From NCBI RefSeq assembly GCF_014237455.1, contig NZ_JABZFL010000096.1, positions 62,001 to 126,000 of the forward strand: a stretch of DNA of 64,000 nucleotides, written 5' to 3'. Source of the stretch: Desulfobacula sp. Its GTDB lineage: Bacteria > Desulfobacterota > Desulfobacteria > Desulfobacterales > Desulfobacteraceae. Each line of letters begins with the position of its first letter. Position 1 is the first letter of the stretch. Positions 16,276 to 29,683 of this stretch are shown here, piece by piece. The translations under genes and the position numbers were made by a program. The notes beneath the pieces are model-generated. The model saw only the letters and a list, made by a program, of their open reading frames with translations. It did not search any database and was not told where the DNA came from.

Positions 16276-19200
16276 TTACATATTTCTTCTGTATTTTCCG
16301 CCCACTTCATACAATGCCTGGGTGATAGTCCCTAAACTGCAAACCTTGGCGGTCTCCATTAATCTTTCAAACATATTTTCATCATTCAGGGCGGTCTGTT
16401 TCAATTTTTCAAGTGCTTCCTCTGACTTATCCATATTTCTTTCTTTAAATTTACTCAATCTTTCAAGCTGGGCATCTTTCTGCTCATCTGTGGCTCTTGA
16501 AAGCTCTAAATGATTTGCCATTTCAGCATAATCTGCATCAGGATCTTCAAATGTATTGACACCAATAATAGGGTGCTTGCCTGAATGTTTCAGGTATTCA
16601 TAATACATGGATTCTTCCTGAATCTTGCCCCGCTGGTATCCAGTTTCCATGGCACCCAGCACACCACCTCTTTCCGTAATTTTTTCAAATTCAATGAGTA
16701 CGGCCTCTTCCACAAGATCTGTGAGTTCATCCACAATAAAACTTCCCTGCAAAGGATTCTCATTCTGGGTCAGCCCCCATTCCCTGTTGACAATCAACTG
16801 AATGGCAAGAGCACGTCTCACAGATTCTGCAGACGGCGTGGTAATGGCTTCATCAAATGCATTGGTATGCAAGCTGTTGCAATTATCATAAATGGCGCAC
16901 AGTCCCTGAAGTGTAGTACGGATATCATTAAACTGGATATCCTGACAGTGCAGAGATCTGCCGGAGGTCTGAATATGGTATTTCAGCTTCTGGGATTTTT
17001 CATTTGCCTTGTATTTATATTTCATGGCCACAGCCCAGATCCTTCTGGCCACCCTTCCGATAACCGTATATTCCGGATCCATTCCATTGGAAAAGAAAAA
17101 GGAGAGGGAGGGTGCAAAACTGTTAATATCCATACCGCGGGAAAGATAATATTCTACATAGGTAAACCCGTTTGCCAAGGTCAATGCAAGCTGGGTAATG
17201 GGATTGGCGCCTGCTTCTGCAATATGATACCCTGAAATGGAAACCGAATAAAAATTTCTCACCTGGTGATCAATAAAGTATTGCTGGATATCCCCCATCA
17301 TTCTCAAGGCAAATTCAATGGAAAAAATACAGGTATTCTGTCCCTGATCTTCCTTTAAAATATCTGCCTGAACCGTTCCCCTCACATTGGACAGGGCAAA
17401 CTGCTTGATCTCTGTAAATTCTTCTTCAGAGGGATCATGACCGTTTTCCGCTTTAAACTTGTCCATCTGCTGTGCAATGGCTGTATTGATAAACATGGCC
17501 AGCATCATTGGCGCCGGACCGTTGATGGTCATGGAGACCGACGTGTTGGGGGCACACAGGTCAAACCCGCCATACAGCACCTTCACATCATCCAGGGTAC
17601 AGATACTCACCCCGGATGTTCCGATCTTACCGTATATATCAGGGCGAGTGTCCGGGTCAAATCCATAAAGGGTAGCTGAATCAAAGGCTGTGGACAATCT
17701 TTTGGCAGGATAACTGCCAGAAAGCAATTTGAACCGCCGATTGGTATCCTCAGGCCCACCTTCGCCTGCAAACATTCTAGTGGGATCTTCATCTGCCCGT
17801 TTTAAAGGAAATACCCCTGCTGCATAGGGAAAGTTCCCGGCAAAATTCTCTTTTCTCATCCACTTATACTGTTCACCCGGATCTTTGAACTGTGGCAGGG
17901 ATATTTTTGGAATTTTTGAATGGGAGAGTGATTCGCTGTATAAAGGCGCCCTGAATTCCTTGCCACGGACATAATACACCAGTTCATCCTTCTCATATAT
18001 CTCTTTGCAGGTATTGAATTCATTAATGCTCTTATCGGTCTCCTCTTCTATGAGAGACTGGGCATCTGCAACCGCCCCCTTAAATTTTTCCAGGGCCTCG
18101 GGCAATTGGTCAAGGCCCATATCCTCCATAGCCTTTGAAGCCTCAATCAAATGCCACCGTTTGCGTACAGCTTCAGCCTGTTCTTCGGTTGTTTTGTGGT
18201 ATTGCCTTACCGTATCGGCAATCTCGGCAAGGTATCGTGTTCTCTCTCCCGGGATAATAATAGTTTTTGAAGAAGATTCTTTTCTGCCCGTCCTCGGAAT
18301 ACTGGACTCATACTTAATATTTTTCTTTTCTGCGATGAGATCCAGAAGCTCATGATAAAAGGCGGTTATCCCGTCATCATTAAACTTGGATGCAATCGTT
18401 CCATACACCGGCAGATCTTTCGGGTCTATATTCCAGGCCTTCCGATTTCTCTGAACCTGTTTCCGTACATCCCTTAACGCATCTTCACTGCCTTTTTTCT
18501 CATACTTGTTTACCACAACAATATCAGCGTAATCCAGCATATCTATCTTTTCCAGCTGGGAGGGGGCACCAAATTCTGCTGTCATGACATAAATGGACAT
18601 ATCCACCAGGTCAACCACCCTTGAATCCCCCTGACCAATACCGGCAGTTTCAACAATAATAATATCATAACCGGCTGCCTTGACCACATTGATTGCATCC
18701 AACAAAGCCTCGGGAAGCTCTGTCTGGGATCGTCTGGTTGCTAAAGACCGCATATAGACACGACCTGTTTCTATGGAATTCATCCTGATTCTGTCACCCA
18801 GGAGGGCGCCGCCTGTTTTCCTTCTGGACGGATCACAGGAAATAATGGCAATATTGACATCTTTAAGATCGTGCAGAATCCTGATAATCAATTCATCTGT
18901 CAAAGACGACTTGCCTGCTCCACCGGTTCCGGTTAACCCGATGACGGGAACATCACTTTTATCTGCAATTTTGGAAATAATTGAAATAATTTTTTCAAAT
19001 GTATCCCGGTCGTTTGCTTTGGCCTCCTGAACCGCAGAAATAAAATTTGCCGTCACATATTTATTATCGATATTCAGATTCTCATAATCAAGATTCTCAT
19101 AATCAACCGAAGGAAAATCCATGGTTCGCATCATATCATTGATCATACCCTGAAGCCCAATTTTTGCGCCGTCTTCAGGAGAATAGATCCGGGTCACACC

Positions 19201-19545
19201 ATAGGCATGCAGATCATCCATTTCTGAAGGAATGATAACACCGCCTCCGCCGCCAAAAATTTTAATATGCGAAGCGCCTTTTTCTTTTAAGAGATCCACC
19301 ATATACTTAAAATATTCGACATGCCCGCCCTGGTAACTGGATACGGCAATGCCCTGTGCATCTTCTTCTATTGCGGCATCCACAACTTCTTTTGCAGACC
19401 GGTTATGACCGATATGGATCACTTCCGCACCGGAATCCTGCAAAATTCTTCTCATTATATTTATGGAAGCATCATGACCGTCAAAAAGTGATGTGGCGGT
19501 AACGATTTTAACTGAATGCTTGGGTTTGTAACTCTGGGTTTCCAT
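16276..19545 (-). CDS. icmF: Fused isobutyryl-CoA mutase (IcmF): B12 domain, G-protein chaperone and mutase in one chain
   Basis: A 1089-residue adenosylcobalamin enzyme interconverting isobutyryl-CoA and butyryl-CoA; family members also act on isovaleryl/pivalyl-CoA. Domain order: cobalamin-binding (about 10-145, base-off histidine in [15 protein letters not shown], then FGGGGGVI), MeaI-type GTPase (about 185-420, P-loop GTGGAGKSS), linker, and mutase TIM barrel (about 560-1089). In the mutase part RMFAGEGG has phenylalanine where methylmalonyl-CoA mutases have tyrosine, and [10 protein letters not shown] matches IcmF. This separates it from methylmalonyl-CoA mutase. The ATG at 19545 has AAGGAG upstream. 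It sits between tetR and the thiolase gene and is probably co-transcribed with both. With the dehydrogenase, hydratase, Hbd and thiolase encoded nearby it gives a route from isobutyrate to acetyl-CoA. Confidence 0.9.
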
Positions 19546-19662
19546 ACTTATTCTTTCTCCTTTTAAAAACATTCGGGAGTTTGATAAAACTAAACAAAGT
19601 TTATACGCTATATTTTAACTGTCACAAAATTAAAAAAAAATAAATAAAAAAATTTATTTTTA

Positions 19663-20313
19663 TTAAAATATAAGTCCAAGAATAAAATCGGTTTGAATTT
19701 TAATATATTCCTCGATGGTAAAATTTCTTTGTAGATGCCAGCGCCGAAAGGCCCACATCTGGCCCAGTACAGATATGTTGTGACCCACAAGATTTAATAT
19801 TTTTTCATCAAGCTTTGGGAAATTATTTTTCCCGGAGAGAGAAGAAAGCGCATTAATAAAAATGTCTGTTATATTCAACTCATTTACCAGGATTCTTGCT
19901 TTCCATTTTTCCGGCAGAAATTGAGTCACCTGGTACATCATGAGAATATGGTCTCCCATCTTATCACAAACATAAAAATAATGACGAATAACCCGGGCAA
20001 GTCTCTCTTCTTCTTTATCTGTATCTGATAACGCATTTTCAACAGCATCCCAGACCTCCTCATGAATGGTTTTACACACCAGATAAAGAAGATCCTCTTT
20101 AGAACTGACATATTCATATAAAGAACCGATGGAAAAGTTGGCAGCCTTTGCAATCATCCGTGTCGTGGTCTTGTGGTACCCGTGTTCAATGAAAAGCGTA
20201 ACCGTAGAATCAATGATCTGGCGTCTTCTTTCACGAACCAGTTCAGGATTTTTTATTTGTGTCGGGACTTCTATGTCAGATATTGGAGTTTTGGATTTTT
20301 TAATTTTTCTCAA
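19663..20313 (-). CDS. TetR-family regulator of acyl-CoA catabolism
   Basis: A 216-residue repressor-type protein. The N-terminal helix-turn-helix (about residues 27-75) shows RRRQIIDSTVTLFIEHGYHKTTTRMIAKAA and the SIGSLYEYVSSKEDLLYLV recognition region; the C-terminal part fits acyl-CoA-sensing TetR proteins. The start is a TTG at 20313 with GGGAG 7 bp upstream; the next in-frame ATG is inside the DNA-binding domain. Its own upstream region holds a GAGCGCTC palindrome (20373-20380), shared with the dehydrogenase operon (20539) and the ligase-like gene (3100), which suggests autoregulation and a small regulon. The inducer is probably a short-chain acyl-CoA, by inference only. Confidence 0.88.
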   Translation of the reverse strand: MRKIKKSKTPISDIEVPTQIKNPELVRERRRQIIDSTVTLFIEHGYHKTTTRMIAKAANFSIGSLYEYVSSKEDLLYLVCKTIHEEVWDAVENALSDTDKEEERLARVIRHYFYVCDKMGDHILMMYQVTQFLPEKWKARILVNELNITDIFINALSSLSGKNNFPKLDEKILNLVGHNISVLGQMWAFRRWHLQRNFTIEEYIKIQTDFILGLIF

Positions 20314-20635: not shown

Positions 20636-21784
20636 GTGGATTTTGACCTTACCAAAGAGCAGGAAATGATCCGTAAGGAAGTTAGAAAGTTTGCCCAAAA
20701 AGAGATTGCCCCCATTGCGGGAGAGCTTGATGAAAAAGAAGAATTTTCAGAAAAGCTGACCCTGCAAATGGGAGAAATCGGTCTTTTCGGCATGTTTGTT
20801 TCAGAAAAGTATGAAGGCCAGGAAATGGACTATATTTCCTACATTATCGGCGTTGAAGAAATTGCAAGAATTGACGGTTCCCAGGCTGCCACCATTGCTG
20901 CAGCCAATTCGCTGGGCATCGGTCCGATCTACTATTTTGGTACTGAAGAGCAAAAACAAAAATATCTGCCCAAACTTTGCGCAGGGGAAGGCCTGTGGGG
21001 ATTTGGCTTGACTGAACCCACTGCCGGATCTGATGCCGGCGGCAGCAAAACAACCGCTGTCCTGGATGGAAACGAATGGGTTATCAATGGATCAAAAATA
21101 TTTATCACCAATGCTGCCTGTGATATGACCATGGGCGTAACGGTCCAGGCAATTACCGGCACAAGGGACAGCGGCAAACCTGAATATTCCTGTATCCTTG
21201 TTGAAGCGGGCACACCAGGATTTAAGGCCATCCCCATGCACAAAAAATTGATGTGGCGATCCTCCAACACAGCGGAACTCTATTTTGATGATGTCAGGGT
21301 CCCCAAAGAGAATATACTGGGTCAAAAAGGCGACGGGTTCCATCAGATGCTGTCAACCCTTGACGGAGGAAGGCTTTCCATCGGTGCCATGGGCCTTGGC
21401 GGTGCCCAGGGGGCCTATGACCTTGCTTTGAAATATGCCAAAGAAAGAAAACAGTTTGGACAGCCCATTTCAAAATTCCAGGCCATTGCCTTTAAACTGG
21501 CAGACTGTGCCATGGAAATAGAGTGTGCCAGGAATCTTTTATACAAAGCCTGCTGGCTCAAAAGCAATAAACGTCCCTTTGAAAAGGAAGCTGCCATGGG
21601 CAAACTTTATTGTTCTGAAGTCATGTCCAGGGTTGCGGATCATGCTGTCCAGATTCATGGAGGATATGGTTTGATGAAAGAATACAATGTGGAAAGATTT
21701 TACAGGGACCAGAAGCTCTTGGAAATCGGTGAAGGGACTTCAGAAGTTCAACGCATTGTGATTTCACGTCATATTGGCTGCTGA
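20636..21784 (+). CDS. Short-chain-type acyl-CoA dehydrogenase
   Basis: A 382-residue FAD enzyme oxidising an acyl-CoA to the 2-enoyl-CoA and passing electrons to ETF. Start is GTG at 20636 with AAGGAGG upstream. FAD-binding segments are GFGLTEPTAGSDAGG (about 123) and INGSKIFITNA; the C-terminal motif is LLEIGEGTSEVQR. The glutamate just before GTS (about E366) is the catalytic base position of butyryl- and medium-chain enzymes. True isovaleryl-CoA dehydrogenases usually have alanine there and a base elsewhere. So, despite leucine-pathway neighbours, a butyryl-CoA or 2-methyl-branched substrate is at least as likely. First gene of the operon, behind a TetR operator. Confidence 0.9.
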   Translation: MDFDLTKEQEMIRKEVRKFAQKEIAPIAGELDEKEEFSEKLTLQMGEIGLFGMFVSEKYEGQEMDYISYIIGVEEIARIDGSQAATIAAANSLGIGPIYYFGTEEQKQKYLPKLCAGEGLWGFGLTEPTAGSDAGGSKTTAVLDGNEWVINGSKIFITNAACDMTMGVTVQAITGTRDSGKPEYSCILVEAGTPGFKAIPMHKKLMWRSSNTAELYFDDVRVPKENILGQKGDGFHQMLSTLDGGRLSIGAMGLGGAQGAYDLALKYAKERKQFGQPISKFQAIAFKLADCAMEIECARNLLYKACWLKSNKRPFEKEAAMGKLYCSEVMSRVADHAVQIHGGYGLMKEYNVERFYRDQKLLEIGEGTSEVQRIVISRHIGC

Positions 21785-21827: not shown

Positions 21828-22613
21828 ATGAGCACAACCGATCTTCTGTTAGTTGAAGAAAAAAGAAAGGCTGTCATCCTGACCATGAACAGACCCAAAG
21901 TGATGAACTGCCTGAATTTTGATCTTTTATATGCCATCAGAGACAAAATTGATGATCTTCAATACAGAAACGATATCCGAACAGTCATTATTACCGGCGC
22001 AGGTGAGAAATCATTCTGTGCCGGCGCTGATTTAAAAGAGAGGGTTTCTCTGACCCCGGATGAGGTAAAAAAATTTATTATCACCATCAGAAATCTTTTG
22101 ACATCTATCCAGAATCTTCCCATACCGGTCATTTCGGCCGTGAATGGGATTGCCCTGGGCGGCGGCACTGAAGTGGCCCTGGCATCGGACATTCGCATTG
22201 CCTCTGAAAACGCAAGTATGGGACTGACAGAAGCAAGGCTTGCCATCATCCCGGGAGGCGGCGGTACCCAGCGGCTACCGAGAATCATTGGAGTAGCAAA
22301 AGCCAAGGAACTGATCTTTACGGGCAAGCGTGTTAACGCAAAAGAAGCCCTTGATATCGGCCTTGTTAACAGGGTCACAACGCCTGAAACCCTTTTGGAT
22401 GACTGCATGGAAATGGCAGACATGATTGCCGAAACCGGTCCCATTGCCGTTGAAATGGCCAAATATGCCATTGATAGAGGTATTGAAACCGACCTTGCCA
22501 CAGGGCTTGCCATTGAATCCAATGCATACAGGGTAACCATACCCACTGAGGACAGAATCGAAGGACTGACCGCTTTTAAAGAAAAGAGAAAACCTCGTTA
22601 CAAAGGGAGATAA
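21828..22613 (+). CDS. Enoyl-CoA hydratase, methylglutaconyl-CoA hydratase-like
   Basis: A 261-residue crotonase-fold enzyme. Oxyanion-hole segments are FCAGADLKER (about 64) and GIALGGGTEVALASDIR (about 105). Both catalytic glutamates are present, in GGTEVA and GLTEARLA. The stretch LAIIPGGGGTQRLPR is typical of the AUH/LiuC group, which hydrates 3-methylglutaconyl-CoA to HMG-CoA, though these enzymes can also hydrate crotonyl-CoA. GGAG precedes the ATG. It lies between the dehydrogenase and carboxyltransferase genes, which supports the leucine-pathway reading. Confidence 0.87.
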   Translation: MSTTDLLLVEEKRKAVILTMNRPKVMNCLNFDLLYAIRDKIDDLQYRNDIRTVIITGAGEKSFCAGADLKERVSLTPDEVKKFIITIRNLLTSIQNLPIPVISAVNGIALGGGTEVALASDIRIASENASMGLTEARLAIIPGGGGTQRLPRIIGVAKAKELIFTGKRVNAKEALDIGLVNRVTTPETLLDDCMEMADMIAETGPIAVEMAKYAIDRGIETDLATGLAIESNAYRVTIPTEDRIEGLTAFKEKRKPRYKGR

Positions 22614-22621
22614 AAAAACCC

Positions 22622-24211
22622 ATGACTGAAAATAAAAAATTTTGGGAAGCCGAAGAAAAAAAACTTGAAGAACGGCGACAGGAAGCCATATGGCCTGGCG
22701 GGCAAAAGGCGGTTGACAAGCTTTCCAAAAGAGACAAACGCCCTGTCAGAGAATTGATAACAGACGTGATAGATCCTGACACCCCGTTTTTTGAACTTTC
22801 CACACTGGCAGGATTCGGCATGAATTATCCAGGTGTTGATGATGTTCATTGTGCAGGGATTGTCACAGGGATAGGCAAAGTTCACGGGAACTGGACCATG
22901 ATCATGGGAAGTGACAGCCGGGTTAAAGCAGGCACTTATTTTCCCATTACCTTAAAAAAACATATGAGAGCCCAGGCCATTGCAGAAAAATGTGGTTTGA
23001 ACTGCATTTATATCGCTGACTCCGGAGGGGTTTTCCTCCCCATGCAGGCAGATGTATTTCCTGATGACCAGCATTTTGGGTCCATCTTTTATAACATGGC
23101 CAGAATGTCAGCCATGGGACTTCGTCAGGTCACCTTAAGTACGGGTGGAAATACGGCAGGCGGTGCCTATATTGTATTTATGGCCTGTGAATCCATCATG
23201 ATTGACAAACAGTCCTTTTCATTTCTCGGCGGTCCTCCCCTTGTAAAAATGGCCACGGGAGAAGAAATTTCTGCAGAGAATCTTGGGGGCGCCAGGGTTC
23301 ATACTGAGATCTCCGGGGGTGCAGACCATCTATGTGCTGACCAGACCCAGGCCGTTGCAAAAGTAAGAGAGCTGCTCTCCCTGACTGCACCGCAAAAAAT
23401 CCATCTTCACAGATATGAACCTCAGGAGCCTGAAGTATCTCCTGATACCATCTATGATATATTGCCCACGTCCCCCCACCAGGGAATTAATGGATTAAAA
23501 TTTATTGAAGCTATTGCAGATGGATCTGAGTTCATTGAAAGCAAGAAAAATTTTGCCCCGGGCCGGGGTTCCAATATTCTGACTGGAAAAATCAGAATAT
23601 TGGGGCTTCCCATCGGGGTTGTCTGCTCTAATGCAGCAGGAATTATCTTTCATGAAGCTGCCAAAAAAGTAGCGGAGTGGGTGGTTCGATGTTCCTATGA
23701 AAAAATCCCTTTACTGTTTATCCAGAGTTCACCCGGATACATGATTGGCTCTGACTCGGAACATGCCGGAATCGGTAAATTTGGTGCGGATATGGTTCGG
23801 GCTGTCTCCTGTGCCCAGGTGCCAAGGATTCAGCTGGTTATCGGCCCTGATAACGGGGCGGCCAATTACGGTATGTGCGGAAGAGCTTACAAACCCAACT
23901 TTCTGTTTTCAACAATGAGAGCCAGAACCGGGGTTATGAGCGGGAGAAGTGCCGGCGGCGTTCTATTAAGCATTGAGCAGGCAAAACGGAAAGCCAAAGG
24001 GACTCCCATGACACCAGAGGAAGTAGGTGAATTTCAACAGAAAATGATTGATAAATATGATGGCGAAGCCCACCCCTTTTTCTGTGCATCACGGCTTTTA
24101 AATGATCGTGTGATTAAATTTTGTGAGATCAGGGACTGGCTTGCCATGGCTTTTGAAGTCAGCCTTATCAAACCCATTGATGATCCAACATTTGGAAATT
24201 TCAGATTTTAA
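22622..24211 (+). CDS. Acyl-CoA carboxylase carboxyltransferase subunit (methylcrotonyl-CoA carboxylase beta-like)
   Basis: A 529-residue carboxyltransferase with N- and C-terminal crotonase-like halves. FLGGPPLVKMATGEEISAENLGGARVHT (about 200-227) and TGGNTAGGAYIVFMACE mark the acyl-CoA site; GRGSNILTGKIRILGLPIGVVCSNAAG and GANYGMCGRAY-type segments mark the biotin half. The length fits MccB (about 535). It would transfer CO2 from carboxybiotin to 3-methylcrotonyl-CoA. No biotin carboxylase or biotin-carrier gene is in the window, so the partner must be encoded elsewhere, or the protein works in another complex such as a decarboxylase. It starts 8 bp after the hydratase gene. Confidence 0.87.
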   Translation: MTENKKFWEAEEKKLEERRQEAIWPGGQKAVDKLSKRDKRPVRELITDVIDPDTPFFELSTLAGFGMNYPGVDDVHCAGIVTGIGKVHGNWTMIMGSDSRVKAGTYFPITLKKHMRAQAIAEKCGLNCIYIADSGGVFLPMQADVFPDDQHFGSIFYNMARMSAMGLRQVTLSTGGNTAGGAYIVFMACESIMIDKQSFSFLGGPPLVKMATGEEISAENLGGARVHTEISGGADHLCADQTQAVAKVRELLSLTAPQKIHLHRYEPQEPEVSPDTIYDILPTSPHQGINGLKFIEAIADGSEFIESKKNFAPGRGSNILTGKIRILGLPIGVVCSNAAGIIFHEAAKKVAEWVVRCSYEKIPLLFIQSSPGYMIGSDSEHAGIGKFGADMVRAVSCAQVPRIQLVIGPDNGAANYGMCGRAYKPNFLFSTMRARTGVMSGRSAGGVLLSIEQAKRKAKGTPMTPEEVGEFQQKMIDKYDGEAHPFFCASRLLNDRVIKFCEIRDWLAMAFEVSLIKPIDDPTFGNFRF

Positions 24212-24237: not shown

Positions 24238-25362
24238 ATGACAGAATATGATTACTGGAAAATCTTTCCAAGGATGCCCAAAAAGGTCACCCTTGGCGAT
24301 ATTACAATCCGTGACGGATTCCAGCATCTTGAAAAATTTATTTCTACGCCTGCTAAAATCACTTATCTTGAAGAATTGATTTTTGCAGGATGCCGCAACA
24401 TTGAAGTCACCAATCTGGGGAATCCGAGAAGTATGCCCCAGTTCAGTGATGCCGAAGAACTTCTGGCCCATCTCAAAGGCGATAATTTTATCAGCCGGGC
24501 GGCCAAAAAAGGCATTAACATGGACGATGTGGTCTTGACCGCCATCACCATTCGCGAACCATCCGTTGACCGGGCCATTGAACTTAAAAAAAGAGGTGTC
24601 GGCCCGGACAGGGTATTAATGATGGTCTCCACCGAAGAAGAACACCATTTTGCCAATTCCGGCACCACCCTTCCAAACTATTGGAAAGAGGCTGAAAGAT
24701 CTATTAAAAAATGCTCCGATGCCGGTATTAAAATGTGCGGTACGGTCAGTACCATCTGGGGAAGCCCCATTGGCGGTGCCACTGAACTAAAGGATGCCGT
24801 GGAATTTACCAAACACTGGCTTGATATTGGGGCCAGTGATATTGAGCATGCCGATCATGACGGGTCTGCATCTGCGGCAGACGTCTATCGGTATTTTTCC
24901 ATGATCCTTGATGATATCCCGGACACAAGCCTTCACATTGCCCATTTTCATGAAACAAAAAGAGTGGCCGCAGCCTCGGTTCTTGCGGCTCTCCAGGCAG
25001 GCATCTGCCATTTTGAAGCAACCCTTGGTGGTCTTGGCGGACAGCCGGCCAACTTCCTGGGTGACAGGCCCATTAAAGGCACAGGCGATTATTATTATGA
25101 TGATGCAAGATATGTGGGATTGGTCTGCCTTGAAGATACGCTTGTACAAATTGATGAAATGGGTATAGAACATGGATATGATGTTGACAGAATCCTGTGG
25201 CTGGGTAAACAGATGGAAAAAACTGTTGGCACAAGATTAAGAAGTGAGGCTATGATCAACGGCAGAACCCTTAAGGAAGGGCATATGCAGTATGCCAGAC
25301 CCGGACTTGCAAAAATTAAAAAAAAACTGGGTGAATCGCCGGATCAAAGTTTTCCCGAATAA
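24238..25362 (+). CDS. HMG-CoA-lyase-like DRE-TIM protein lacking the catalytic cysteine loop
   Basis: A 374-residue TIM-barrel protein of the HMG-CoA lyase/isopropylmalate synthase superfamily, longer than the usual 300. RDGFQH (about 22) supplies the arginine and metal aspartate, and AHFHETKRVAAASVLAALQAG supplies the two metal histidines. In true HMG-CoA lyases a GGCPYAxGASGN loop follows and carries the catalytic cysteine and a metal asparagine. Here it reads GLGGQPANFLGDRP, with glutamine for cysteine. By position it should cleave HMG-CoA to acetoacetate and acetyl-CoA, and an acetoacetyl-CoA synthetase gene follows, but chemistry or substrate may differ. AGGAG upstream supports the start. 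Confidence 0.8.
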   Translation: MTEYDYWKIFPRMPKKVTLGDITIRDGFQHLEKFISTPAKITYLEELIFAGCRNIEVTNLGNPRSMPQFSDAEELLAHLKGDNFISRAAKKGINMDDVVLTAITIREPSVDRAIELKKRGVGPDRVLMMVSTEEEHHFANSGTTLPNYWKEAERSIKKCSDAGIKMCGTVSTIWGSPIGGATELKDAVEFTKHWLDIGASDIEHADHDGSASAADVYRYFSMILDDIPDTSLHIAHFHETKRVAAASVLAALQAGICHFEATLGGLGGQPANFLGDRPIKGTGDYYYDDARYVGLVCLEDTLVQIDEMGIEHGYDVDRILWLGKQMEKTVGTRLRSEAMINGRTLKEGHMQYARPGLAKIKKKLGESPDQSFPE

Positions 25363-25380
25363 TGATGACAAGGAGACATT

Positions 25381-26016
25381 ATGGACAAACAAGACAAAAT
25401 ACCTCATATCAATCTAGATTATTTTGAAGATCTTACCGGAAATATAAAAAATGGTGAGAAAGGTGATGTGGATGAAGTGGGAAAACGCATCAAGCAAGTG
25501 AGAGAGGAAAGGGGCATTTCCATTGAAAACCTTTCCGATCTGACGGGGTTTGACGTTTCCCGGCTTCAGGACATTGAAAGCGGCAGGGTAAAACCCCAGC
25601 TCGGAACCGTGATGAAACTTTCAAAGGCTCTGGATTCTGCTGTGGGCCGCCTGGTATCCGACATGGGAACCAAGCTGTATGCCATTACAAGGAAGGATGA
25701 AAGGAAACAGATTTCCCGTTCCACTTCAAAAACCGGCAAGCAGAATGTTTATTCTTACATGAGCCTTGCCCCTGAAGTCCAGGGCCGTCACATGGAAGCT
25801 TTGATCGTACAATTGGAAAAAAGCAAAGACAAAGAAATATCCGTCCATAACGGAGAAGAATTTGTTTTTGTTCTTAATGGTGTTGTCAATCTGACCATTG
25901 GAAAAGACACCTATGATCTTGAACCGGGTGACAGTGCCTACTACTTGTCCACAACTGCTCATTTTATTACTGCAAAAACTGAAAAAGCCACCATACTTGC
26001 TGTTCTGTATGAATAA
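25381..26016 (+). CDS. XRE-cupin transcriptional regulator
   Basis: A 211-residue regulator: a charged N-terminus, an XRE helix-turn-helix (about 35-90; VGKRIKQVREERGISIENLSDLTG) and a C-terminal cupin (about 130-211) with HNGEEFVFVLNGVVNL and DLEPGDSAYYLSTTAHF. Such proteins often sense a small metabolite in the cupin. It lies inside the operon, 18 bp after the lyase-like gene and 11 bp before acetoacetyl-CoA synthetase, which suggests local control of the pathway alongside TetR. RBS AAGGAG precedes the ATG. Confidence 0.88.
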   Translation: MDKQDKIPHINLDYFEDLTGNIKNGEKGDVDEVGKRIKQVREERGISIENLSDLTGFDVSRLQDIESGRVKPQLGTVMKLSKALDSAVGRLVSDMGTKLYAITRKDERKQISRSTSKTGKQNVYSYMSLAPEVQGRHMEALIVQLEKSKDKEISVHNGEEFVFVLNGVVNLTIGKDTYDLEPGDSAYYLSTTAHFITAKTEKATILAVLYE

Positions 26017-26027
26017 GGAGATAAAAA

Positions 26028-27977
26028 ATGCCAAAACTTTTGTGGCAGCCGTCTGAGGAGAGAATTAAACGTACCAACATGTATCGTTTCATGAATCTTG
26101 TGAATGAAAAATTTAACAAGGATTTTAAAGAATATGCATCTTTGTGGGAATGGTCTGTGGACAACCTTGAGGATTTCTGGGCAACCGCCTGGGATTTTCT
26201 TGATATCAAGGCCTCCCAGTCCTATGACAAGGCCATTGATGATCCAACCAAAATGCCCGGGGCAAAATTCTTTGTCAACTCCAAACTTAATTTTGCCGAA
26301 AACCTTTTACAATTTAAAAATGACCATCCGGCCTTAATTTTCAGGGGAGAAGATTCAGTTCGAAAAACCCTGACCTACCATCAACTTTATGATGAAGTGG
26401 CAAAAACTGCCGCCGCTTTAAAATCACTTGGCATAGAAAAAGGCGACCGGGTAGTTGGCTTTGTCCCCAATATGCCCGAAAGCATCATCGCCATGCTGGC
26501 CGCCACAAGTCTTGGCGCCGTCTGGTCTTCCTGCTCACCGGATTTTGGGATCAAAGGGGTCTTAGACAGATTCGGTCAAACCCGACCCAAAGTATTGTTT
26601 ACGGCTAACGGATATTTTTTTAAAGGCAAGGCCCTGGGCAGCATTGAAAGAATCGCCGGTATTGTCAAAGAGATCCCTTCCATAGAAAAAATTGTTGTGA
26701 TCCCCTATGTATCTGAGGAACCCGATATCAGCTCCCTGCCAAATGCAGTGCTGTTCAAAGATTTTAAAGATCCTGATGCCACCCAAATTGAATTTGAGCA
26801 GATGGATTTTGATGATCCGCTTTATATCATGTATTCTTCAGGGACCACAGGACTTCCAAAATGCATGGTACAGAGTGTGGGCGGCGTTCTTTTACACCAG
26901 AAAAAAGAACTGGTACTCCATACGGATCTGAAAGAAGAAGACACCATTTTCTATTTTACCACCTGTGGCTGGATGATGTGGAACTGGCTGACCACGTCCT
27001 TAAGTGTGGGGGCAACCCTTGTTCTTTTTGACGGTAATCCGTTCCATCCCGGACCTGATGCGTTATGGAAAATGGCCCAGGATGAAAAAATAACGGTTTT
27101 CGGCACCAGCGCAGGATATATTGAAGCTTTGAAAACCGCAGGGGTTAAACCCGGGAAACAATTTGACCTGTCTGCCTTAAAATCAGTTCTTTCAACCGGA
27201 TCACCCCTGTCGGATGAAAACTTTGAATATATATACAATGAAGTGAAAGAGGACCTCCAGCTGGCTTCCATATCCGGTGGATCAGACCTTAACGGCTGTT
27301 TTGCCCTGGGCAATCCCATCGGTCCTGTGTATACCGGAGAACTCCAGTGCCGCGGCCTTGGCATGAAAGTCTATGCCTATGATGGAAGCGGCAACCCTGT
27401 AGTGGAAGAACAGGCCGAGCTTGTCTGTACCGCGCCCTTCCCGTCCATGCCCATATTTTTCTGGGGGGACGAAGACGGCTCCAAATACCATTCCGCCTAT
27501 TTTGACGAATACCCGGGGATCTGGACCCATGGGGATTTTATAATGGTAACCGAACGAGGCGGCGTGATCATGTTCGGCAGATCAGATGCCACACTCAACC
27601 CTGGCGGTGTGAGGATCGGTACAGCTGAAATCTACCGCCGCCTTGATGCCATGGAAGAACTTGAAGACTCTGTTATTGTGGGACAATCCTGGAACAATGA
27701 TGTCAGAGTCATTCTCTTTGTTAAAATGGCCCAGGGGTTTGAACTTAACGACGAGCTTCGAAACAAGATCAAGTCAGACATCAGGGCCAATGCATCACCA
27801 AGGCATGTCCCGGCTAAAATCATTGAATGCCCGGATGTTCCCTACACACTTAACATGAAAAAAGTGGAGCTGGCCGTTAAAAAAATGATCGAAGGAAAAG
27901 AGGTGAAAAACAAGGATGCATTAAAGAATCCTGAAGCCCTTAATTTTTTTGGCAGTCTTGAAGAACTCAAATCATAA
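26028..27977 (+). CDS. Acetoacetyl-CoA synthetase
   Basis: A 649-residue AMP-forming ligase converting acetoacetate to acetoacetyl-CoA. The N-terminus LLWQPSEERIKRTNMYRFM and LNFAENLL are characteristic of AacS. The phosphate loop is YSSGTTGLPKCMVQ (about 267), the adenine site TGSPLSDENF/SGGSDLNG region, and the terminal loop PYTLNMKKVE retains a lysine. It takes up the acetoacetate expected from the HMG-CoA-lyase step and feeds the thiolase encoded at 15072. It ends the plus-strand operon, followed by a hairpin at 27997-28029. Confidence 0.92.
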   Translation: MPKLLWQPSEERIKRTNMYRFMNLVNEKFNKDFKEYASLWEWSVDNLEDFWATAWDFLDIKASQSYDKAIDDPTKMPGAKFFVNSKLNFAENLLQFKNDHPALIFRGEDSVRKTLTYHQLYDEVAKTAAALKSLGIEKGDRVVGFVPNMPESIIAMLAATSLGAVWSSCSPDFGIKGVLDRFGQTRPKVLFTANGYFFKGKALGSIERIAGIVKEIPSIEKIVVIPYVSEEPDISSLPNAVLFKDFKDPDATQIEFEQMDFDDPLYIMYSSGTTGLPKCMVQSVGGVLLHQKKELVLHTDLKEEDTIFYFTTCGWMMWNWLTTSLSVGATLVLFDGNPFHPGPDALWKMAQDEKITVFGTSAGYIEALKTAGVKPGKQFDLSALKSVLSTGSPLSDENFEYIYNEVKEDLQLASISGGSDLNGCFALGNPIGPVYTGELQCRGLGMKVYAYDGSGNPVVEEQAELVCTAPFPSMPIFFWGDEDGSKYHSAYFDEYPGIWTHGDFIMVTERGGVIMFGRSDATLNPGGVRIGTAEIYRRLDAMEELEDSVIVGQSWNNDVRVILFVKMAQGFELNDELRNKIKSDIRANASPRHVPAKIIECPDVPYTLNMKKVELAVKKMIEGKEVKNKDALKNPEALNFFGSLEELKS

Positions 27978-28116: not shown

Positions 28117-28953
28117 ATGGAATCAGAAATAAAAGACCACTATAATTCAGACCATCTCACTCAAGACATCAAAACAGCATTAATCAACGCCGGTTTTAAC
28201 CTTTCAGCTCTTGAATTAAAAAACCTTTCCCCCATTGATCAGCTTCATACCGGCGGAGCCCCGGCCAGTATTAACCTATTCAAAAAAACAAACTTCTCTC
28301 CCGACGCATTGGTCCTTGATGTCGGCTGTGGTCTTGGAGGATCTTCAAGACTCCTTGCCAAACAATTTAACTGCAAGGTTATCGGCGTTGACCTGGCAGA
28401 CAAATTTATCGAAGCTGCAACCTTTTTGACCCAGTGTACCAAACTTGAAAACAACGTTTCTTTCCAACAGGGTTCCGTTCTTGATCTGCCCTTTGAAAAC
28501 AATACGTTTGATGCCATTATATGTCAGCACCTTTTAATGAATATTGAAAACAAATCAAAGGGTATCAAAGAGATTTTCAGAGTCCTGAAACAGAATGGAA
28601 AGCTGATTTTACATGAGATCACAAAGGGTGAAAATGACACGCTTCTCCTTCCTGTTCCATGGGCAGACAAGACTTCCATCTCATTTCTTGAACCCTGGGA
28701 TATCCTATCCACCATCCTTGAAAAACAAGGCTTTGAAACCCAATCCTATTCAGATGGAACCCACACGGCATGTTCATGGTGGGAAAAGGTCAACCTTGTA
28801 TCTCAAACAAGAAGCCCCCGACCCAATTCCTTAGGCCCTGGCCTTGTTTTTGGCGACATTGCAAAATTTTTCGGCAAAAACATGTATGCAAACTTTAAAA
28901 ATAATTCAATTTGTCTTGTTGAAGCTATCCTAAAAAAAAGCTATGCTACATAA
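28117..28953 (+). CDS. Class I SAM-dependent methyltransferase
   Basis: A 278-residue methyltransferase with motif I VLDVGCGLGGSSRLLA (about 67), acidic loop VIGVDLADKF, and post-motif LPFENNTFDAIICQHLLMNI. It resembles small-molecule (UbiE/sarcosine-dimethylglycine type) methyltransferases, not RNA or DNA enzymes. No substrate can be assigned. No clear Shine-Dalgarno stands before the ATG. It follows a REP-like repeat, and its end lies 47 bp before the lipoprotein start. Confidence 0.78.
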   Translation: MESEIKDHYNSDHLTQDIKTALINAGFNLSALELKNLSPIDQLHTGGAPASINLFKKTNFSPDALVLDVGCGLGGSSRLLAKQFNCKVIGVDLADKFIEAATFLTQCTKLENNVSFQQGSVLDLPFENNTFDAIICQHLLMNIENKSKGIKEIFRVLKQNGKLILHEITKGENDTLLLPVPWADKTSISFLEPWDILSTILEKQGFETQSYSDGTHTACSWWEKVNLVSQTRSPRPNSLGPGLVFGDIAKFFGKNMYANFKNNSICLVEAILKKSYAT

Positions 28954-28999
28954 ATCTTATTTTTTATCATTCAACAACTTAAAGAAAAAGGATACAAAA

Positions 29000-29683
29000 A
29001 TGAAATGTTTTAAGATGGGTATTGTGATTTCTTTTGGACTTTTTTTTCTGGCAGGTTGCCATACAGTAGGGGTTGGTGTCCAGATACCGGGAACCCCACA
29101 TCATCAAACAAAATACCATAAGCCGGGACCTCCTCCCCATGCTCCGGCCCATGGATACCGTCATAAACACCGTCACGGCCACGACCTTGAATATCGATCG
29201 GGACTGGGGGCTTATGTTGTTGTAAATATACCGGAAACCTACTTTGGCAACAACCTGTATATCAGGATGTCAACCGATGGGAGATGGATGGTATCCGCAA
29301 GGCTTGAACACGGATGGCGTGTTGCTGTCGGCAATGAAGTGCCGTATAAATTAAAGAAACATAAAAAATATAAAAAGAAACATAAAACAAAATACCATAA
29401 GCCGGGACCTCCTCCCCATGCTCCGGCCCATGGATACCGTCATAAACACCGTCACGGCCACGACCTTGAATATCGATCGGGACTGGGGGCTTACGTTGTT
29501 GTAAATATACCGGAAACCTACTTTGGCAACAACCTGTATATCAGGATGTCAACCGATGGGAGATGGATGGTATCCGCAAGGCTTGAAAAAGGGTGGCGTG
29601 TTGCTGTCGGCAATGAAGTGCCGTATAAATTAAGGGAACATAAAAAATATAAAAAGAAATCCAAGAAAAGGAAAAAGACATAA
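29000..29683 (+). CDS. His-rich lipoprotein with an internal 93-residue duplication
   Basis: A 227-residue exported protein. A type II signal ends in the lipobox FFLAGC, giving a membrane-anchored cysteine at about residue 19. The mature part is two nearly identical 93-residue units, each with a Pro/His-rich head (KYHKPGPPPHAPAHGYRHKH), a compact middle (GLGAYVVVNIPETYFGNNL), and a Lys-rich tail (KKHKKYKKK). The start at 29000 is preferred over an in-frame upstream ATG at 28943 because AAGGA and a proper signal peptide then follow. The many histidines suggest metal binding, but function is unknown. The gene precedes ferritin by 41 bp. Confidence 0.8.
   Translation: MKCFKMGIVISFGLFFLAGCHTVGVGVQIPGTPHHQTKYHKPGPPPHAPAHGYRHKHRHGHDLEYRSGLGAYVVVNIPETYFGNNLYIRMSTDGRWMVSARLEHGWRVAVGNEVPYKLKKHKKYKKKHKTKYHKPGPPPHAPAHGYRHKHRHGHDLEYRSGLGAYVVVNIPETYFGNNLYIRMSTDGRWMVSARLEKGWRVAVGNEVPYKLREHKKYKKKSKKRKKT
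29106..29661 (+). repeat. Tandem duplication, two units of 279 bp
   Basis: Units at about 29106-29384 and 29385-29661 are offset by exactly 279 bp (93 codons) and nearly identical at the nucleotide level, silent sites included. A few changes, such as the His/Lys codon in the RLEHGWR/RLEKGWR region, separate them. Such identity implies a recent duplication or ongoing gene conversion. Confidence 0.92.

Follow-up and report, generated by a model that had tools for sequence, protein, structure and literature searches.

The window analysed here, a stretch of 64,000 nucleotides from Desulfobacula sp., encodes a homologue of HMG-CoA lyase in which glutamine stands at the position of the catalytic cysteine. 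We think it likely that this protein is a Cys-independent HMG-CoA lyase of the anaerobic isovalerate (leucine) pathway. Gene content, conservation and predicted fold could be followed directly, and from these we infer the substrate and the catalytic residues. The gene is one of six that follow each other closely on the same strand, 8-43 bases apart, in the order acyl-CoA dehydrogenase, enoyl-CoA hydratase, carboxyltransferase, Gln-type lyase, XRE-cupin regulator and acetoacetate-CoA ligase (Table 1). This run reads as a leucine/isovalerate route via HMG-CoA, with the Gln-type gene at the place of HMG-CoA lyase. Isovaleryl-CoA would be converted through 3-methylcrotonyl-CoA, 3-methylglutaconyl-CoA and HMG-CoA to acetyl-CoA and acetoacetate, and the neighbouring ligase would turn acetoacetate into acetoacetyl-CoA. 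To judge from its best matches, the acyl-CoA dehydrogenase is less telling for the pathway than its neighbours.

Table 1. Genes of the cluster and active-site positions of the Gln-type lyase (window coordinates).
Feature	Position	Strand	Basis
IcmF, fused isobutyryl-CoA mutase/GTPase, divergent	16276..19572	-	above cut-off
TetR-type regulator, divergent from the six-gene run	19663..20313	-	profile matches
Acyl-CoA dehydrogenase, short/branched-chain type	20636..21784	+	closest solved proteins are acyl-CoA and butyryl/short-chain enzymes, ahead of isovaleryl-CoA dehydrogenases
Enoyl-CoA hydratase	21828..22613	+	human methylglutaconyl-CoA hydratase second-best solved match
Carboxyltransferase	22622..24211	+	among solved proteins closest to methylcrotonyl-CoA carboxylase beta (419 bits)
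Gln-type HMG-CoA lyase homologue, 374 aa	24238..25362	+	Pfam HMGL-like 80.5 bits; NF004283 124.9 bits (cut-off 246); predicted fold
Arg25-Asp26, retained catalytic Arg and metal ligand Asp	24310..24315	+	alignments
His207	24856..24858	+	132/132 family rows; Thr in Cys-type rows
His236-x-His238, retained metal ligands	24943..24951	+	alignments
Gln269 codon (CAG), site of catalytic Cys266	25042..25044	+	alignments
17-residue lid insertion, residues 272-288, NFLGDRPIKGTGDYYYD	25051..25101	+	gaps in aligned Cys-type rows (17-row and 20-row sets)
Leu295, site of metal ligand Asn275	25120..25122	+	alignments; ligand role from the available part of PMC6941031
XRE-HTH/cupin regulator	25381..26016	+	domain match
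Acetoacetate-CoA ligase	26028..27977	+	above NCBIfam cut-off; sole match type at E 1e-60

The reading frame of the lyase gene (24238-25362, plus strand) is intact, begins with ATG and is preceded by AAGGAG. Its product scores well above the cut-off of 29 bits with the Pfam model PF00682 (HMGL-like) and well below the 246 bits required by the curated NCBIfam HMG-CoA lyase model NF004283. The two features that a sequence-only reading had pointed out, glutamine at the catalytic cysteine position and about 75 additional residues, were both borne out: the catalytic loop reads GGLGGQPANFLGDRPIKGTGDYYYDD, with Gln269 aligned to human Cys266, and the 374 residues compare with 295-320 in the six solved HMG-CoA lyase chains that were matched. 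Human residue numbers follow the chain numbering of HMG-CoA lyase PDB 2cw6. In residue alignments, Arg25, Asp26, Glu56 and His236/His238 correspond to human Arg41, Asp42, Glu72 and His233/His235, all of which stand unchanged in the list of critical residues given in the available part of PMC6941031. The same list includes Tyr167, Cys266 and the metal ligand Asn275, which are replaced by Thr169, Gln269 and Leu295, respectively.

These features recur throughout the family, for which 132 rows were aligned (131 loci and the window; the rows are not independent, as they include close species and the source collections may share genomes). The position of Cys266 is occupied by Gln in 130 rows and by Trp in two, and this conservation argues against chance or sequencing error. 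Asn275 is replaced by Leu in every row, and the metal ligands Asp42, His233 and His235 are retained in 131, 132 and 132 rows, respectively. The catalytic Arg41 is present in all rows and Glu72 in 131, with one gap. Thr occupies the Tyr167 site in 128 rows; this residue is a weak criterion, since it varies among Cys-type rows as well (Tyr in only 9 of 20). The alteration of all three positions, as well as a score of 125 bits against 246 for the curated model, speaks against an HMG-CoA lyase function. Since the Cys, the Asn ligand and the curated score are all missing, the window protein should not be filed as an ordinary HMG-CoA lyase.

No cysteine is invariant across the 132 rows, and a relocated cysteine is therefore not the general answer. 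The best candidate, Cys167, is found in 124 rows (Asn, Val or Phe in the remaining eight), and Cys277 in 54 rows, with Arg in the window protein; both were rejected as a general mechanism, although a moved cysteine might serve in individual species. The suggestion that the role of the cysteine has been taken over would thus survive in part: if the protein is an HMG-CoA lyase, something other than a moved cysteine should fill this role. The insertion behind Gln269, with the consensus PANFxDxxPxxGTGxYYYxD, is a gap in Cys-type rows; its Tyr286 is conserved in 130 and Tyr285 in 128 of the 132 rows.

Alignment and model show that the TIM barrel is retained, together with the catalytic residues Arg and Glu and a metal site of the Asp-His-His type; the loop with the general acid/base Cys and one metal ligand has been rebuilt as a longer lid. 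In the mechanism that we propose, the metal would be bound by Asp26, His236 and His238, with Arg25 acting as in HMG-CoA lyase. The proton for the acetyl-CoA enolate might come from a lid tyrosine (Tyr285/Tyr286) or from His207, and Gln269 might orient the substrate or fill the vacated metal position. That Gln269 simply compensates for the lost Asn275 is argued against by relatives of 337 residues, which have the Gln and keep the Asn. As the conserved family has Gln and a new lid in place of the Cys, the chemistry probably differs in detail from that of textbook HMG-CoA lyase.

An AlphaFold2 model built from 40 rows has a mean pLDDT of 92.6, the lid being least certain (block mean 69 for residues 281-290). 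On this predicted model, the protein is an HMGL-like TIM barrel with HMG-CoA lyase as its nearest fold: VIA-align superimposed it on human HMG-CoA lyase 2cw6 over 296 of 296 residues at 1.7 A with Z 40.9. Profile scores agree, with 203 bits for HMG-CoA lyase versus at most 72 bits for the other DRE-TIM families compared. An identity as isopropylmalate, citramalate or homocitrate synthase was accordingly rejected (at most 72 bits; Z about 30 or less), as was one as 4-hydroxy-2-oxovalerate aldolase (profile scores up to 49 bits; Z up to 28.6). We also rejected a partner of the carboxyltransferase of the transcarboxylase 5S, OadA or pyruvate carboxylase type: the similarity is weaker (Z 24 for transcarboxylase 5S), and the PYC_OADA domain is absent from the window protein and present in the OadA-like protein of the same genome. 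Glutamine is also found near the loop in pyruvate carboxylases, which had prompted this comparison.

The search of genome contigs confirmed 257 places, of which the best 80 were used; the remaining loci were drawn from the window's phylum. Among these best 80 of 257, the nearest relative is a Desulfobacula genome (97%), and the titles name Desulfobacula, Desulfotignum, Desulfosarcina, other Desulfobacteraceae/Desulfobacterales, Geobacter(aceae), unclassified delta/Proteobacteria and a few others. One of the 80 (L025) is titled Ignavibacteriales, yet is 90% identical to the window protein and may be mis-binned. Another locus (L078) was missed by the choice of reading frame and is outside the 131 loci, although it has the Gln. 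Within the window's genus, the 374-residue protein is matched in 22 of 26 genomes. The family is present in 96 of 395 genomes of the phylum, if matches of at least 47% identity are counted as family; the Gln was confirmed in the fetched loci. In a plasmid search for the family, 303 records matched, none of them reaching 60% identity; where a feature underlies one of the 40 matches listed, it is annotated as HMG-CoA lyase, and the one inspected has GGCPF, i.e., is of the Cys type.

A tree was built from 67 rows, 65 of them different. In it, a branch with support of 100/97 sets the 35 Gln rows apart, so by sequence the Gln-type proteins are a distinct, well-supported clade. The Gln clade and three smaller Cys-less groups are separated from the Cys-type enzymes with support of 90/78; the Cys-type rows as a single group have support of 48/92, and several branches are long. 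The idea of a distinct DRE-TIM lyase, raised from the sequence, is therefore right as far as the separate clade is concerned; by sequence and fold, however, the nearest enzyme is HMG-CoA lyase and not isopropylmalate, citramalate or homocitrate synthase or 4-hydroxy-2-oxovalerate aldolase. The smaller Cys-less HMGL-like groups comprise proteins of 337 residues with GGQPKTG (L157 5744-6754, L159 8627-9637, L161 8928-9938), whose scores of 235-249 bits straddle the HMG-CoA lyase cut-off (246); proteins of 468-529 residues with GGGQPSF or GGGQPAF (L158 7898-9484, L160 8397-9800); and proteins with GGWPANF (L155 8650-9708, L156 8296-9414).

Gene neighbourhoods were counted in the 76 loci with 4 kb on both sides, 55 of the 131 being dropped for short flanks. 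On the same strand and within 6 kb, a hydratase gene was found in 71, a dehydrogenase gene in 53, a carboxyltransferase gene of some type in 45 and an acetoacetate-CoA ligase gene in 24 loci. The carboxyltransferase is thus not nearby in 31 of the 76 loci and the ligase not in 52, which counts against the HMG-CoA lyase reading. The missing ligase would suit a cleavage of HMG-CoA at the other bond to acetoacetyl-CoA and acetate, which would save the cost of acetoacetate activation; the rebuilt lid and the lost metal ligand could conceivably turn the substrate, and the available part of PMC5109826 gives acetoacetyl-CoA and acetyl-CoA as products, with no assay there. Nevertheless, a ligase is encoded nearby in the window and in Desulfococcus multivorans as well as in the 24 loci, and we regard this variant as very unlikely.

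The window's genome (97.8% complete) has no protein above the HMG-CoA lyase cut-off. Among the 96 genomes with the family, 71 also encode another protein above this cut-off and 25 do not, three of the latter having one slightly below 246 bits (G387 243, G073 232, G176 225). Of the 299 genomes without the family, 35 have a protein above the cut-off. The lists were compiled by hand and give 106-107 genomes above the cut-off in all; G021, G200 and G223, which are outside the 96, were counted via 337-residue Gln-type relatives or same-place matches. In 10 of the 76 loci, the Gln-type gene has a Cys-type lyase gene on its own strand no more than 6 kb away, e.g., in the order dehydrogenase, Cys-type lyase, hydratase, Gln-type lyase (L131, L132). 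An identical activity would be redundant there, and this co-occurrence, like the other protein above the cut-off in 71 genomes, weighs against our reading. Together with the loss of the catalytic Cys and a metal ligand, such proximity would fit a paralogue that is inactive or serves regulation, or else a subunit that pairs with the Cys-type lyase. We consider this highly improbable in view of the conservation of the Asp-His-His site, the Arg and the Glu in 131-132 of 132 rows and of the 25 family genomes without another protein above the cut-off.

The same observations bear on the possibility that the Gln-type protein is a lyase for a related 3-hydroxyacyl-CoA, e.g., one that splits 3-hydroxyisovaleryl-CoA into acetone and acetyl-CoA with no carboxylation step, or one that acts on 3-hydroxyglutaryl-CoA, with the Cys-type enzyme, where present, handling HMG-CoA. 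In that case one would expect what the loci display: the hydratase as the most constant neighbour (71/76), an optional carboxyltransferase (45/76), compact dehydrogenase-hydratase-lyase units with no space between for a carboxyltransferase gene, and, in several lineages, a Cys-type lyase encoded within the same run of genes. Carboxyltransferases were compared in sets of 32 and 30 genomes; these sets, like one of 37 used below, were chosen by hand, not at random, and were all taken without a matched family-free control. A match to the window's carboxyltransferase of at least 56% identity was found in 8 of the 32 genomes and one of 37-38% in 4; the other 20 have no match at E 1e-60 to this methylcrotonyl type, which again favours the related substrate and disfavours HMG-CoA. 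Eighteen of the 20, however, encode a carboxyltransferase of the glutaconyl-CoA-decarboxylase type (a 119-residue piece in G393, two pieces in G141), as do 6 of the 10 other genomes among the 30 examined. In total, 28 of these 30 have one type or the other (two of the matches being contig-end pieces or short), and only G351 and G003 have neither. In six genomes (G050, G103, G159, G231, G273, G293), the gene of the glutaconyl type is the immediate same-strand neighbour of the Gln-type gene. The glutaconyl type could perform the same gamma-carboxylation. Its mere presence is weak evidence, since the D. multivorans gene of this type, at 2.82 Mb, lies near the benzoyl-CoA pathway genes, which the available text of PMC5109826 places at 2.80 Mbp. 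The acetoacetate-CoA ligase in 24 of 76 loci and the joint formation of Mcc and HmgL on isovalerate in D. multivorans (PMC5109826, available part) also argue against a related substrate, which we judge to be unlikely. A broader form of the idea, in which the family would be a class of DRE-TIM acyl-CoA lyases that work without the Cys, use the tyrosine lid as acid catalyst and split 3-hydroxyisovaleryl-CoA to acetone and acetyl-CoA in genomes without the methylcrotonyl-type carboxyltransferase, seems distinctly unlikely to us; if true, it would provide an isovalerate route by direct cleavage, without biotin carboxylation.

Several further features of these neighbourhoods were recorded. IcmF interconverts pivalyl-CoA and isovaleryl-CoA, and the lyase cluster may therefore also serve pivalate; in 14 of the 76 loci, IcmF or a related mutase is encoded no farther than 6 kb from the Gln-type lyase. 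A DUF6125 protein of about 248 residues recurs beside a carboxyltransferase (L173 3714-4457) and beside the Gln-type lyase (e.g., L043, L071, L098). A hydantoinase-A protein near L126 and L128-L130 was considered as a hint of acetone carboxylase and treated as chance, as it is encoded on the opposite strand, mostly with queuosine genes. One open reading frame near a Gln-type lyase cluster (L145 4663-5847) carries two TetR-type repressor domains in tandem. In the window's ORF 28943-29683, a 279-base unit is tandemly duplicated at 29102-29659 (97% matches), so that part of a His/Pro-rich, lipoprotein-like protein occurs twice.

The reading as HMG-CoA lyase of isovalerate degradation can be compared with a cultured organism. 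A genome assigned to D. multivorans DSM 2059 (G161) encodes a family member 81% identical to the window protein (GLGGQPANFLDDCP) at 3,210,222-3,211,340, where it forms a run on one strand with genes for a dehydrogenase, a hydratase, a carboxyltransferase, an XRE-cupin protein and an acetoacetate-CoA ligase. According to the available part of PMC5109826, the isovalerate cluster of this bacterium lies at 3.20 Mbp, and only cells adapted to 3-methylbutanoate formed AcsA6, EchA2, Mcc and HmgL. Two other HMG-CoA lyase genes of G161 above the cut-off are located at 0.12 and 1.31 Mb; GGCPYA is present in one of the encoded proteins, and for the other the motif, as far as printed, ends with GGC. The 19-kb stretches around these two genes contain no hydratase, carboxyltransferase or acetoacetate-CoA ligase of the types considered here; about 7 kb away, one of the two has a dehydrogenase-like reading frame and the other a distant AMP-ligase-like one (29%). 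Since the family member occupies the published cluster position and the other two lyases are without such neighbours, the lyase made for isovalerate in D. multivorans is very probably of the Gln type, the link being by map position, not by locus tag.

The biotin carboxylase C-domain (PF02785) has no match in the window's genome, which encodes three carboxyltransferases and three biotin carriers, one of the carriers on the OadA-like protein. PF02785 was found in 28 of 39 genomes drawn from the window's taxonomic family, including all four other members of the genus drawn, and in 25 of the 37 chosen carriers of the Gln-type lyase (24 above the cut-off). Either transcarboxylation would provide the carboxyl group, or the gene is missing from the 113-contig assembly, as the genus-mates suggest.

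We found no description of the Cys266-to-Gln exchange in the literature searched, including the available parts of PMC5109826, PMC6941031 and PMC5017805 (subscription papers lay mostly outside this search). If the Gln clade is indeed the isovalerate-induced lyase of a cultured sulfate reducer, it would represent a second solution for retro-aldol chemistry, and the transfer of names across HMGL-like proteins would conceal a change of mechanism. The breakdown of branched-chain acids by anaerobes with different carboxyltransferases, or possibly with none, would likewise become open to experiment.

Among known systems, isopropylmalate, citramalate and homocitrate synthases, 4-hydroxy-2-oxovalerate aldolase and transcarboxylase 5S share the DRE-TIM barrel with the window protein, at Z 22-30 versus 41 for HMG-CoA lyase. 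The other Cys-less groups of the same phylum, which join the Gln clade at 90/78, have Gln or Trp at the same site. Unlike the Gln clade, the GGQPKTG and GGGQPSF/GGGQPAF groups retain Asn275; the GGWPANF group has neither the Gln nor the lid tyrosines and retains His207. HmgL of D. multivorans, formed only on isovalerate, belongs by map position to the same family as the window protein; the available part of PMC5109826 names it as an ordinary HmgL and there does not mention the missing Cys. HMG-CoA lyase itself (NF004283; PDB 2cw6, 1ydo, 6nds) differs from the window protein at Cys266 (Gln), Asn275 (Leu) and Tyr167 (Thr), in lacking the 17-residue lid insertion and in being about 75 residues shorter, the window protein reaching half the curated cut-off; shared by the two are the full-length predicted fold, the pathway neighbours and the residues Arg41, Asp42, Glu72, Asp204, His233, His235, Glu279 and Asp280.
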